Source of the DNA: Gemmataceae bacterium
Lineage (GTDB): Bacteria > Planctomycetota > Planctomycetia > Gemmatales > Gemmataceae
NCBI GenBank assembly: GCA_019747655.1
Contig: JAIEQO010000080.1
Span: 1-32,187, forward strand
DNA: 32,187 bases
Direction: 5' to 3'
In this document: piece by piece, positions 21,105 through 31,862 of the stretch
How positions within the stretch are numbered: the stretch's first letter is position 1
Layout: each line of letters begins with the position of its first letter
Notes under the pieces: generated by a model
What the model was told of the DNA's origin: nothing
Seen by the model: the letters and a program-made list of their open reading frames with translations, nothing else
Databases searched by the model: none
Translations under genes and position numbers: made by a program

Positions 21105-22541
21105 CTACGCCGCGGGCCGCTCCGCGTCCATCGCGTGGGCGAGGAGCTTGTAGCGGCACTGCTCGGCGAACGTCGCGAGCCCCCGCTCGCTCGCCTTCCG
21201 GTAGTGGTCGAGATCCTCGGCCGGGCCGAGCGTCAACGCCCGCTCCTCGAACGCCGCCCGCTCGGCCGCCGACAGCGACTCGAGGAACGCATCGACCCGG
21301 GCCCGTCGCTCGGCGATGAGCGCCCTCTCCGACTGGGCGGCCTCGGTCCGCTTCCGCGCCTCACGGGTCTGCTCGGCTAGCTCTTTTCGCTTCGCCTCGG
21401 CCTGGGCCGCCTTGACGGTCGAAGGGGTGAACCCGTCGGGCAGCGGGTACTCCTTCTCGATGGAGGCGTAGAGGTATCCGCTCGGCTTCTCCGGCTTGTC
21501 CTTCCGGCCCATCAGCCAGTCGAAGGCCTCGATGCGAACGGCGATGGCGTCGGCCGGCCTCTCCGCGACGAGCTTCCGGGCCGAGTCGCGGTGGACGCCC
21601 CGGCCCACCAGCTCGGCGACGAGCAGGGGTTCGGGCGGCGGGGCCGGCTTCGCCTCGACGGCCTTCGGGACCTGGACCGCCTTCCGCACGAACAGCACCC
21701 GCCACCGGCCGCGGCCGGCCTTGGCGTAGCGGTCTGTGCCGGGGAGCGGTTCGAGGAAGCCACGCTCCTCGAGCTCGCGGAGGGCCGGCTCGAGCTTCTG
21801 CTTCACCTTCCACGGCTCGTAGTCGCGGGAGAGCCCGACCTTCTCGAAGGCGAGCTCGCCCAGGTCGAACTCGAGCCGCTCGCTCCGGTAGAAGTGCTTG
21901 TCCAGGAACCGGTAGAGCCGCTTCGCGATCGCCGAGTCAAGGCTCTGGTAGAAGCCCAGGTCGATCTGCTTGATGTAGTTGGCGCGGAAGCTCTTGAACG
22001 CGACCTTGTTCCACTCGAGGAGGACCTTGCCGCCCCTCCTCCCCTGCCCCTTGCCGATGGCGACCGTGTCGAGCACGTGGAACCCGACGTCCATCCAGGC
22101 CTTGTCCTCGTTGTCCCACCAAGCGTTCTCGTAGTGCAGGTAGGCCGCCGCCCAGCGGTGGAGGCACTCCTCGATCCGCTTGTAGGAGCGGCCGTCGACC
22201 GACCAGCCGAGGAGGTTTACCAGCTCGTAGCGGGTCGTCTGGATCGTCGGCTCGGTGAAGTTGTTCTGGGCCTTGGTGAGCGCCAGCAACCCGAGGAGTA
22301 CCTCCTCGTCCTTCACCGTCGGCAGCCCGTAGGGCTCCGGCCCCGAAACCCGCAGCTTCCGGGCAACTGGCCGGCCGGTGTCCTTGTCGCTGATGATGTC
22401 CTGGAACACGAGCTCGGTGACGCCGTCCGGAACCCGGTCGGTGAGCAGCGCCACCGGGAACTCGGCGAAGTTCATCTCGTCGCGGGCCGTCGGCGTCGCC
22501 AGCGAGTCGGGGAACAGCGATGGGGTGGTGGAACGGCCCAT
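21105..22541 (-). CDS. Plasmid replication initiator protein (RepA/RPA-like)
   Basis: ATG 22541 gives 478 residues; a TTG nine bases upstream (22550) is an alternative. The N-terminal half (about 20-270) resembles the replication initiator protein A / winged-helix initiators: MNFAEFPVALLTDRVPDG, a GLPTVKDEEVLLGLLALTKA segment and KRLYRFLDKHFYRS. The C-terminal third is charged and helical (AQAEAKRKELAEQTREARKR), probably a coiled coil. Seven iteron-like repeats lie directly upstream of its start, the usual arrangement for iteron plasmids in which Rep binds the origin and represses itself. Confidence 0.85.
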   Translation of the reverse strand: MGRSTTPSLFPDSLATPTARDEMNFAEFPVALLTDRVPDGVTELVFQDIISDKDTGRPVARKLRVSGPEPYGLPTVKDEEVLLGLLALTKAQNNFTEPTIQTTRYELVNLLGWSVDGRSYKRIEECLHRWAAAYLHYENAWWDNEDKAWMDVGFHVLDTVAIGKGQGRRGGKVLLEWNKVAFKSFRANYIKQIDLGFYQSLDSAIAKRLYRFLDKHFYRSERLEFDLGELAFEKVGLSRDYEPWKVKQKLEPALRELEERGFLEPLPGTDRYAKAGRGRWRVLFVRKAVQVPKAVEAKPAPPPEPLLVAELVGRGVHRDSARKLVAERPADAIAVRIEAFDWLMGRKDKPEKPSGYLYASIEKEYPLPDGFTPSTVKAAQAEAKRKELAEQTREARKRTEAAQSERALIAERRARVDAFLESLSAAERAAFEERALTLGPAEDLDHYRKASERGLATFAEQCRYKLLAHAMDAERPAA

Positions 22542-22566
22542 ATAACCCAACTCTTCACCGCATCAC

Positions 22567-23323: not shown

Positions 23324-23338
23324 GTTTCCCGGGGAAAC
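23324..23338. promoter_or_regulatory. parS-like site 1
   Basis: GTTTCCCGGGGAAAC, a 15-bp palindrome around a central base. Four other copies flank parAB. It lies 91 bases before the parA ATG. Confidence 0.82.
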
Positions 23339-28726: not shown

Positions 28727-29212
28727 GTGAACCGAAGAACCGCCCTCTTCGTGCTGGTCGTGGCGATCCCCGCGGTCTACTTCGCGGTCGCGCTCGCCGT
28801 CGTCTCGACGACGGAGGTGCTGCGGCCGGAGTCCCGGCTCCCGTTCGCTCTCCTGTACGCCGGCCTCGCCCTGGTCGCCGGGTTCTCGGACTTCTACAAG
28901 CTCCAGTTCGCCCAGGAGACGCCTGGGCCGGCTTGGCTGGACACACGGGGGTTCGTGCGGCGAGCGGTCCGCCAGCACGCGGTGACGGTCCTGTTCATTG
29001 CCCTGGGTGTGGCCGCGTGCGTCCTGCTCGATATCGACCGGCCCTGGCCGGTCATGGTCGGGTTCGTCGCAGGGCCGCTAACCAAGCGGGGTTTAGAAAC
29101 CTTCGTCTATTACACCAGCTTCACGGTCAGCACGGTTTACGAAAAAGTTATGTACCTGGCTGATCTGCTGCTGTACTTCGGCATTGTCCTCGTCCTGCTC
29201 CGGGGGTGGTGA
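28727..29212 (+). CDS. Transfer-region membrane protein 1 (161 aa)
   Basis: GTG 28727 follows GGGAGG (28717-28722). Hydrophobic stretches at about 5-27, 38-56, 83-103 and 143-160 suggest four membrane helices. It is co-directional with the relaxase and lies 10 bases after it. No family recognised. With the next gene it may supply the membrane part missing from the coupling ATPase. Confidence 0.75.
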   Translation: MNRRTALFVLVVAIPAVYFAVALAVVSTTEVLRPESRLPFALLYAGLALVAGFSDFYKLQFAQETPGPAWLDTRGFVRRAVRQHAVTVLFIALGVAACVLLDIDRPWPVMVGFVAGPLTKRGLETFVYYTSFTVSTVYEKVMYLADLLLYFGIVLVLLRGW

Positions 29213-29215
29213 CTG

Positions 29216-29713
29216 GTGGACCCCTCCTCGCCCGGCATGCTGTTCGTCCGGCTGGCGGTCCTGTGGCCGTCCGCCTTCGCCGTCTTCGGCTGGCTGATGG
29301 CTTTCGATCTCGACCTGTTCGCCTCGGCCCCGGACCGCTGGTTCAAGGTCGCCGTCACCGGGCTGACTGTGGCCCTAGTCCCATTCTCGCTAGGGGTCAA
29401 CGACTGGTTCCAGTTCGTGTGGCGGGAGGTAGAGACGGACTACCCCGAGCGGTTCCTGCGTCGGCAGGACACGCTTTACGCCGGGGTGTTCGCGATGGCG
29501 GTCGCCGCCTTCCCGTTCATCTGGCTGATCGGGCCGACCGACTACCAGGTCCTCCCATACTTCGCGGCCGGCGTCGCGTTCTTCACGGTCCGCGCGTACC
29601 TCGCCGTCCCGCGGGCCGAGAGCCCGACCCCGCCGGAGCGGGATGAGAACTACAACGTGGAAGTTCCAGACCACCTCAAGGGCGACCCCAGGAAGCGGAG
29701 GAAGCAGCCGTGA
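29216..29713 (+). CDS. Transfer-region membrane protein 2 (165 aa)
   Basis: GTG 29216 begins three bases after the previous stop. Hydrophobic segments at about 9-30, 42-60, 90-108 and 112-128 suggest four membrane helices, followed by a charged cytoplasmic tail (ERDENYNVEVPDHLKGDPRK). Its stop overlaps the start of the coupling protein (GTGATG, 29710-29715). The tight coupling suggests that all three products assemble together. Confidence 0.75.
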   Translation: MDPSSPGMLFVRLAVLWPSAFAVFGWLMAFDLDLFASAPDRWFKVAVTGLTVALVPFSLGVNDWFQFVWREVETDYPERFLRRQDTLYAGVFAMAVAAFPFIWLIGPTDYQVLPYFAAGVAFFTVRAYLAVPRAESPTPPERDENYNVEVPDHLKGDPRKRRKQP

Positions 29714-31332
29714 TGGGCGTCCTGGGGTGGCTCAAGTCGCTCTTTGTGGCCGACGCCGAGGGGTTGTACTTCGGCGGGCTCCGCGTCTCGGACGAGAAGG
29801 GCGAGGGCGGGTTCATGCTCGTCGGGGTGCCGGGGACGGGCAAGACCGTCGTCATCGACATGGTGCTCCGGCAGGTCCTCCCGCCGATCGCCGACGGGTC
29901 CCGGGACGACCGGGCGCTCATCTACGACCCGAAGCGGGAGTACATCTCGAAGTTGCAGAGGCTCGGCTACTTCGACCCGGTGTCCGCCGGGATGGCGGGC
30001 ACCGCGTTCGACCCCGCCACGGACGCAACAAACGTGGTTATCACCAACCCGCTTGACGAACGGGGGCTGTGTTGGGAGGTGGCCAAGGATTTCGACCGGC
30101 TGCTCGACGCCCGGCAGTTCGCAACGGTTCTTACGGCCGATGCCCGGGAATACGGCTCGGGGGGCGGCACGGACAAAGAGTTTTTCGTCGAGAGCTGCAC
30201 GCAACTCTTTCAGGCAGTCTTCAAGGTGTTGCACCGCCGTAAGCCGTACCGGCCCGGCCTGCCCGGGTCGGGGTGGAGCCTCCGCGACTTCATCCTCGCG
30301 TTTGAGGATTACGACGACCTGGAGATGTTGCTGAACGGTAAGGACGCCGCCGACGACACCAGGAAGCCGTGGAACGACTTCCTCGGCAAGGCGATCATGC
30401 GGGGCGAGACCGGCCCATCGGTGGTGGCCTCGGTCGGCAAGTACCTTGGGCGGATTAGAGACATCGCAGCGGCGTGGGACGCCATCCGGCGGAAGCACCC
30501 GTCCCGGACCTTTTCGTTCCGGGAGTGGGTGAATGGACGCAAAATCCTGATCCTGGGCAGCTCAGAGCGGTACGGCCCGCTGCTCCACATCGCCAACCGC
30601 TTGCTTTTCCACAAGGCGGCTGTCGAGTTGTTTGAACACAGGCGGCAGAACGACGCCGCCCGGAACACATGGGTCGTCCTGGACGAACTCCCGGAGCTCG
30701 GTCACCTGACTGACCTTCACCGGCTGCTCGCGAAAGGCCGTAGCTGGGGCATCCGGGTGTTGTTCGCGTTCCAGAACTACAGTCAGCTCAGGGAGGTGTT
30801 CGGGGACCACCAGGCGGACAGCATCGTCAGCCTCGCCCATACGTTCGCGGTGTTCAACTGCGGCGTCGACACCGCGGAGCGCGAGTCAAAAATGTTCGGC
30901 GAGTACACCGACCAGCAAGGCCGGTCGAGGCCGCGAGTCAGCCCCACTGACATTACCGACCTGCCCGTTGACCCTGTCGAACGAGGCGTCGTCGGCTGGT
31001 ACTACTCGAAGCGGTTGCCCGAGCCCCGGGCCAGGAAGCGGGCCATGCCGTGGTCGGAGGTGAAGAAGACGTTCATTCAGAGAGACGGGCTATGGGATAC
31101 GGTCGAGCGGGAGAACGAGGAGGACTTCGCGCTCAAAATCTGGGAGGATGAGGAGCGGGCCGTCCTCAAGCTCGGCGGCCGGGGCCGGATCGACCAGGTG
31201 CCGACCTACGACGGCCTCCAGCACCTCGTCGACCGCCTGAAAAAGGAAAAGGGCCAGGCGAACCCGGTCCTTCAGCGAGTACAATCGTTGCTCGACCAGG
31301 CCAAGGAGGGTGAGCGTGGCAAAGGGCGATAA
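29710..31332 (+). CDS. Coupling-protein ATPase (VirD4/TrwB/TraD-like), no N-terminal membrane domain
   Basis: 540 residues from GTG 29710, or 539 from ATG 29713; GGAGGAAG lies at 29698-29705. Walker A GVPGTGKT is at 39-46 and Walker B VVLDE at 322-326, followed by LPELGHLTDLHRLLAKGRSW and LFAFQNYSQLREVFG, typical of type IV coupling proteins. The usual two transmembrane helices before Walker A are missing: only about 38 residues precede it. It would pump the relaxase-bound strand towards a secretion channel. No VirB-type channel genes occur on the plasmid. Confidence 0.9.
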   Translation: MMGVLGWLKSLFVADAEGLYFGGLRVSDEKGEGGFMLVGVPGTGKTVVIDMVLRQVLPPIADGSRDDRALIYDPKREYISKLQRLGYFDPVSAGMAGTAFDPATDATNVVITNPLDERGLCWEVAKDFDRLLDARQFATVLTADAREYGSGGGTDKEFFVESCTQLFQAVFKVLHRRKPYRPGLPGSGWSLRDFILAFEDYDDLEMLLNGKDAADDTRKPWNDFLGKAIMRGETGPSVVASVGKYLGRIRDIAAAWDAIRRKHPSRTFSFREWVNGRKILILGSSERYGPLLHIANRLLFHKAAVELFEHRRQNDAARNTWVVLDELPELGHLTDLHRLLAKGRSWGIRVLFAFQNYSQLREVFGDHQADSIVSLAHTFAVFNCGVDTAERESKMFGEYTDQQGRSRPRVSPTDITDLPVDPVERGVVGWYYSKRLPEPRARKRAMPWSEVKKTFIQRDGLWDTVERENEEDFALKIWEDEERAVLKLGGRGRIDQVPTYDGLQHLVDRLKKEKGQANPVLQRVQSLLDQAKEGERGKGR

Positions 31333-31394: not shown

Positions 31395-31862
31395 ATGGCA
31401 GAGCGCGAGTTGAAAGACCGGTACGTTGAGTGGAAAGGGAAGCGGCTCTTCTTCCGGTGCACAGACGACGTCTTCCCCAGGCTGAGCCAGGACCCTGCGT
31501 TCCTCGACGAGCTATGGCTCGACAAAGCCGTCGCGGAACGGCAGCCGAGAGAAGACCGACTGGAGTCGGTGTTCCGGCAGCAAGACTTGTTGTGGCAAGC
31601 CGATTGGGAGCGGAAGAAGCCGTTCCGTAAGCCTCGAGAGATACAGTGGCGGGGGAACACGCTCCGGTTCGAGGCGACCGACGAGGAGTTCGAACAGTGG
31701 AAGAACGACGACTCGTTTCTTCGCGGCATGTGGTTCTATGAGGAGTGGGTCGCGCACGGTAAAACCTCAGCCTGGTCGGAGGAGCAATCGAAATCGTCGC
31801 GAGACAAGTGGTCCAAGGGGTGGTTGGACGAGGCGGCCGACGCTGGTGAGCCGGATGCCTGA
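31395..31862 (+). CDS. Hypothetical protein with an internal 29-residue duplication
   Basis: ATG 31395 follows GGAGGTG. The 155-residue protein contains two gapless repeats of 29 residues, Trp13-Trp41 and Trp85-Trp113, sharing 11 identical positions: the pattern W-G--L-F--TD--F with later D, FL and W. The repeats are 72 residues apart and joined by a charged helix (REDRLESVFRQQDLLWQADW). The tail is Ser/Lys/Trp-rich. No known family. It follows the coupling-protein gene by 62 bases and may be in the transfer operon. Confidence 0.72.
   Translation: MAERELKDRYVEWKGKRLFFRCTDDVFPRLSQDPAFLDELWLDKAVAERQPREDRLESVFRQQDLLWQADWERKKPFRKPREIQWRGNTLRFEATDEEFEQWKNDDSFLRGMWFYEEWVAHGKTSAWSEEQSKSSRDKWSKGWLDEAADAGEPDA

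Follow-up and report, generated by a model that had tools for sequence, protein, structure and literature searches.

The stretch of DNA analyzed here (the window; 32,187 nucleotides) is one entire contig of the 1113-contig source genome. In its last third, a RepA/TrfA-like replication gene lies on the minus strand (21105-22550), and the plus strand encodes ParA, ParB, a MobF relaxase, two small membrane proteins (P0001 and P0002), and a coupling ATPase (P0003). This gene set constitutes a plasmid-like backbone. The relaxase gene P0004 (26084..28717, plus strand) is the first of the cassette and directly precedes the small genes and the ATPase on the same strand. Pfam (TrwC, 1.3e-63) and NCBIfam (MobF NF041492, 193.8 bits against a cutoff of 100) identified its product as a TrwC/TraA-like relaxase-helicase. 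A second, distant MobF-type relaxase (30% identity) is encoded on another contig of the source genome (G000:C1113:8219-9883). The short palindrome TTTCCC(N)GGGAAA occurs at positions 23325, 25297, 25342, and 25386, around the ParA/ParB genes, and was also found near ParA in a locus of the same genus (L045; 10624-15095); these repeats are candidate binding sites for ParB or a replication protein. Downstream of the ATPase, a 155-amino-acid protein (31395-31862) apparently carries two copies of the motif W-K/R-G-x-x-L-x-F ... FL-x-x-x-W and had no match in Pfam.

P0003 (29713..31332, plus strand) comprises 539 amino acids from the ATG at 29713 or 540 from the GTG at 29710. It was matched by the Pfam models TrwB_AAD_bind (2.4e-39) and TraG-D_C (1.6e-17), and the best PDB match of its profile was TrwB (1.2e-33). 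The predicted model (pLDDT 75.9, pTM 0.77) was superimposed on TrwB deltaN70 (1e9s_F) with a Z score of 31.6 and an rmsd of 2.7 over 376 aligned residues; residues 13-466 align on TrwB 105-505, so that residue 13 corresponds to TrwB residue 105. The membrane part of TrwB is given as about 70 residues (PMC7431656). Based on the Pfam matches, the PDB profile, and the superposition, P0003 is a coupling motor that starts past the end of the membrane part of TrwB. The earlier note had described about 38 residues and no transmembrane (TM) helix ahead of the Walker A motif (GVPGTGKT, 29824..29847, plus strand), and both points were borne out: 38 residues precede it from the GTG and 37 from the ATG, and a home-made Kyte-Doolittle scan (not TMHMM; window of 19, TM threshold of 1.6) detected no segment, the peak of 1.48 lying over the Walker A region. 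With a TrwB-type nucleotide-binding domain, a motor and all-alpha fold, and a relaxase neighbor, P0003 has the features of a type IV coupling protein (T4CP). It lacks the two or more N-terminal TM helices in the same chain that characterize VirD4-type T4CPs, and with 540 amino acids, no TM segment, and a TrwB-like fold it also differs from the FtsK type, whose members exceed 750 residues, have several TM segments, and lack the all-alpha domain. The absence of a TM domain of its own and the small membrane protein genes nearby agree with the class termed "T4CP lacking TMD." Its first residues form a hydrophobic/amphipathic peptide, MGVLGWLKSLFV (29713..29748, plus strand), which is modeled as a helix at residues 3-11 with a pLDDT below 50 over residues 1-15. 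Similar hydrophobic N termini are present in the ATPases of L118, L120, and L127. The peptide is a possible docking helix, which we propose with low confidence.

The two genes between relaxase and ATPase are tightly packed. P0001 (28727..29212, plus strand; 161 amino acids) was recognized by hydropathy and its coding G+C pattern; it has four segments at or above 1.6, the strongest reaching 2.8, and ends three residues past the last of them, leaving almost no cytosolic tail. P0002 (29216..29713, plus strand; 165 amino acids) is proposed to be the N-terminal membrane domain of the coupling protein in detached form, as suggested by hydropathy, position, and a low-confidence AlphaFold model (pLDDT 53.1) with long helices where hydropathy places the segments. 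It displays the layout TM-TM-loop-TM-TM-basic end, with three segments at or above 1.6 and a weaker fourth at 1.46. The description of both as four-helix membrane proteins in the earlier note is thus firm for P0001 and probable for P0002. Third-position G+C was 0.85 and 0.91, and the codon-position G+C of both small open reading frames (ORFs) matches that of the neighboring genes; therefore, they look like real genes. The relaxase gene ends 9 nt ahead of P0001, and P0001 and P0002 are separated by 3 nt (29212 to 29216), so the stop/start overlap that had been reported for both junctions holds only between P0002 and the ATPase (TGATG). Within this GTGATG junction (29710..29715, plus strand), the P0002 stop codon TGA (29711-29713) overlaps the ATPase start, either ATG (29713-29715) or GTG (29710-29712). 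The overlap probably reflects translational coupling. A Shine-Dalgarno-like GGAGG (29697..29701, plus strand) lies within the end of P0002, 11 nt upstream of the ATG and 8 nt upstream of the GTG at 29710.

Similarity searches with the small proteins were negative. P0001 and P0002 had no Pfam or NCBIfam match above cutoff and no match by tblastn in plasmids, and searches of the phylum and family genomes returned only trivial matches. Profiles of either protein scored no better than reversed controls against the membrane partners and fused domains described below. P0001 and P0002 share no sequence similarity that would indicate a tandem duplication. Scans of viral contigs with P0003 and P0004 found nothing.

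Relatives of the ATPase were collected in several searches. The same-family search with the ATPase covered 95 genomes, 21 of which gave some match, and eleven regions were fetched. The seven nearest homologs (L035-L041) carry two to four TM segments upstream of Walker A in the same ORF, as do the cyanobacterial plasmid proteins L046 and L047. In L045 (genome G090), the relaxase is followed by one 221-amino-acid membrane protein and then by a TM-less ATPase. Another candidate locus, G091:C939, was discarded; its relaxase is broken, and no coupling protein was found beside it. A scan of genome contigs with the ATPase alignment yielded 43 loci, which together with L045, three plasmid loci, and the window made 48 classified loci. 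A partner was defined as an upstream ORF that encodes at least 70 amino acids and a minimum of two TM segments. At the 1.6 threshold, 14 ATPases lacked a TM segment; one of them (L126) is truncated and was left out of the count and the trees. Partners preceded 9 of the 13 remaining TM-less ATPases (the window, L045, L113, L118, L120, L121, L123, L124, and L127) versus 1 of 34 TM-bearing ones (Fisher test, 4.8e-6), and this single case is a shadow ORF nested in the gene of L046 itself. No partner under this rule precedes the TM-less ATPases of L092, L101, L107, and L115; L107 has one weak TM segment, and L115 has no relaxase in view. A membrane partner is thus not universal among TM-less relatives of this ATPase. 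In the Verrucomicrobiota relatives L099, L100, L109-L112, and L114, one TM segment lies in the roughly 80 to 88 residues ahead of Walker A, and the relaxase found follows the ATPase instead of preceding it.

When 397 genomes across the class were searched with a split-ATPase profile, 30 loci were returned. The 11 best scoring of these (L128-L138) are all split; among them are the window and three loci that had already been collected. Duplicates across collections (L127 and L128, L118 and L129, L123 and L132, and the window and L138) were counted once. This search added L130, L131, L133, L134, L135, L136, and L137. The open frame of L131 scores one TM segment, its start being uncertain, and the locus was counted as split with its partner gene preceding. 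No partner gene was found in the 13 TM-bearing loci of this search or at five distant TM-less loci (L152 and L154-L157); L153, where the upstream ORF falls under the rule but measures 317 amino acids, was not counted. L152, L154, L156, and L157 have 207 to 316 residues ahead of an RSGKT-type Walker A motif and no MobF relaxase in view; they possibly represent another ATPase family. In total, 16 split loci including the window were obtained, the other 15 all in Planctomycetota, with L120 and L121 being near copies. Their order is relaxase, small protein with two to four TM segments, and TM-less ATPase. The earlier note had named the absence of small membrane proteins beside related ATPases as evidence against its reading; what we found is an adjacent upstream membrane protein beside the MobF-linked TM-less ATPase in these 16 loci, an outcome that favors the reading. 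Among the partner/ATPase junctions measured, which cover part of the split loci, ATGA was found in L118, L124, L127, and L135 and TGATG in the window, L120, and L121, while L113 has an abutting in-frame TAA-ATG and L123 a 61-nt gap. The split cassette of L124 sits in the chromosome record of a named isolate.

The distance from the relaxase stop codon to Walker A is nearly the same in both arrangements, with a median of 606 nt in fused loci (n = 17; range, 360 to 1397 nt) and 610.5 nt in split loci (n = 16; range, 544 to 1107 nt). The window has the largest value among the split loci, and subtracting P0001 and its spacer (about 498 nt) from the 1107 nt leaves about 609 nt. The partner gene thus occupies the DNA slot of the N-terminal domain of fused relatives. 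A short linker motif is shared as well. RGR was found downstream of the last TM segment in 13 of 15 distinct partners (L120, a near copy of L121, was left out) versus 1.86 expected from shuffled tails, a comparison whose probability treats related partners as independent and is descriptive only. The motif also lies past the last TM segment in 20 of 34 fused or one-TM proteins, and several others carry a variant such as RGT. The partners of L136 and L137 read VSRGRKLTSAEDAR, which resembles LRGRRLLTYQECRAR in the fused proteins of L037 and L038. Judging from the matching distances and from the RGR linker found in most partners, the partner probably represents the former N-terminal domain. Partner and fused N-terminal profiles, when compared, gave no more than a suggestive match (probability, 14%; E value, 4e-4).

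P0002 itself has no RGR motif, and for the window, its place, topology, basic end, overlap with the ATPase gene, and analogy to the other loci suggest the assignment as the membrane domain. The proposal that one or both small proteins supply this domain in trans is supported by our results and can be narrowed to P0002, which touches the ATPase, because none of the other 15 split loci has a gene corresponding to P0001 between relaxase and partner. P0001 probably serves as an accessory subunit in the membrane and, by analogy, could be comparable to the TraJ of TraG-TraJ pairs.

In a 52-row tree, 12 split rows group with the orphan L115 in a single clade (support, 100/100), and a pair of fused proteins from Armatimonadota branches next to it as sister group (93/84); the rest of the tree consists mostly of fused and one-TM forms. 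Given the fused sister and the predominance of fused and one-TM forms elsewhere, fission is the simpler reading, and the split arrangement of the main clade likely arose in this way. The window ATPase is a long branch outside this clade, paired with the long row L123 (89/79), and L045 is likewise a long branch outside it. Four changes were counted on this tree. On a smaller data set, an AU test did not reject a single origin of all split rows (P = 0.233), so neither one nor several origins are established; the split in the window may be a separate event. The second tree leaves out L048, L120, L108, L090, L116, L103, and L100 as near copies or long outgroup.

Searches for a transfer channel were mostly negative. 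The source genome had no match to the VirB4 model PF03135 of Pfam, and none of 13 split genomes, two of which are single-contig genomes (G199 and G665), had a VirB4 above the NCBIfam cutoff, 8 of them showing weak subthreshold matches. Among 12 genomes with fused or one-TM relatives, one (G029) contained VirB4 above cutoff, and no VirB10-family match was found in 16 genomes (13 split and 3 fused). At L158 (G615:C66), a weak VirB4-model match (1.3e-7) lies inside a 2061-residue open frame; a split cassette is encoded on this contig as well, with its ATPase about 31 kb away. On these results, the split cassettes probably mobilize via the channel of another element or via one too divergent for the models. 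That relaxase, membrane subunit, and motor form a self-sufficient DNA export unit, with free membrane subunits building the pore in place of a VirB4/VirB10-type channel, is a speculative idea that we regard as very unlikely.

We consider it likely that the cassette encodes a split type IV coupling protein beside a MobF relaxase, with P0002 as its former N-terminal membrane domain. The relaxase would nick and bind the plasmid, and the motor P0003 would capture the relaxase-DNA complex. P0002, translated just ahead of the motor and presumably coupled to it through the stop/start overlap, would hold the motor at the inner membrane, probably via its basic end and the short hydrophobic N terminus of the motor. 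P0003 would then oligomerize there and pump the DNA into a transfer channel.

Other explanations were weighed against this reading. The small proteins could be something else that merely lies beside the motor, such as a VirB3/VirB6-like mating channel subunit or an exclusion or immunity protein. Operon adjacency is common, no similarity of P0002 to other partners was detected, and P0001 stands without a counterpart. However, in the split loci, position and length of the small gene are those of the N-terminal domain that it replaces, 13 of 15 partners keep the RGR linker, and TM-bearing relatives lack such a gene (1/34, the shadow ORF, and 0/13 in the class-wide search). A recognizable channel set to join is also missing, as judged from VirB4 in the 13 split genomes and VirB10 in the 16. 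We therefore regard this explanation as unlikely. That P0001, alone or jointly with P0002, provides the membrane domain and leaves P0002 as a linker-like adaptor appears quite unlikely to us: P0001 has the stronger TM segments and belongs to the same operon, but the slot contains a single membrane gene in every other split locus, taking P0001 out restores the normal spacing, and it offers no cytosolic tail.

Two further explanations were weighed as well. A peripheral motor, attached only through the short hydrophobic helix at its N terminus or through the channel, would fit the short hydrophobic N termini in the window, L118, L120, and L127 and the loci without a partner in view (L115 and L101); moreover, a TcpA mutant without its TM domain is described as still transferring DNA, at reduced frequency (PMC7431656). 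Since most T4CPs tested are reported to need the TM domain (PMC7434980), and a partner gene has been kept beside the motor in 16 loci, we find such a motor highly improbable. Alternatively, the split might not be real, and a sequencing frameshift, programmed frameshifting, or stop read-through might give one fused protein. The frames of P0002 and the ATPase differ in the window and would be joined by a single indel or -1 shift close to the junction, and errors are possible in MAG sequence. Against this stand the differing frame relations across the 16 loci (ATGA, TGATG, in-frame TAA-ATG, and the gap in L123), the isolate record of L124, and the lack of a classic slippery heptamer at the window junction, as read by eye, which together make an artifact or frameshift extremely improbable.

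Split coupling proteins have already been put forward in the literature. A 2020 review distinguishes five subfamilies, among them "T4CP lacking TMD," with TraJ and TraI of pIP501 (PMC7434980), and TraI is called the putative or proposed anchor of TraJ (PMC13037476; PMC12857230). As described there, pIP501 likewise combines a TM-less coupling ATPase with a small adjacent membrane protein as proposed anchor; however, it is a Gram-positive plasmid, and its TraI has two predicted TM segments. The window and its split relatives belong to Planctomycetota, pair with a MobF relaxase, have partners with two to four TM segments, often show start/stop overlap, and have clear fused sister lineages. The likeness is one of architecture only. 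TrwB of R388 and other VirD4-type proteins share the motor fold, the all-alpha domain, and the pairing with a MobF relaxase, but TrwB carries its TM domain in the same chain, while the chain of P0003 has none. In TraG-TraJ pairs, a membrane protein of about 200 residues with up to five TM helices is encoded beside the coupling protein, which, unlike P0003, is reported to have its own TM domain (PMC7434980). MobB of CloDF13 resembles the present case as a coupling protein that accompanies a relaxase on an element lacking a channel of its own, but it is described as keeping its N-terminal TM domain, and a mutant without residues 1-184 was not functional (PMC7431656). Neither a planctomycete MobF coupling protein nor a "split" one appeared among the literature matches listed. 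The new elements are a MobF lineage in Planctomycetota and its fused sisters, along with the matching spacing and the retention of the linker.

For coupling proteins, neither the role of the membrane domain beyond anchoring nor the need for joining it to the motor is settled. The loci described here provide a natural series near MobF relaxases, in which related motors occur in fused, one-TM, and split versions and the relaxase-motor spacing is conserved between the fused and split forms. They also give a likely role to the small genes of the window that had no Pfam or NCBIfam match above cutoff. The split form would offer a separable membrane subunit for mixing, swapping, and purifying and thus a natural test of the purpose of the anchor.
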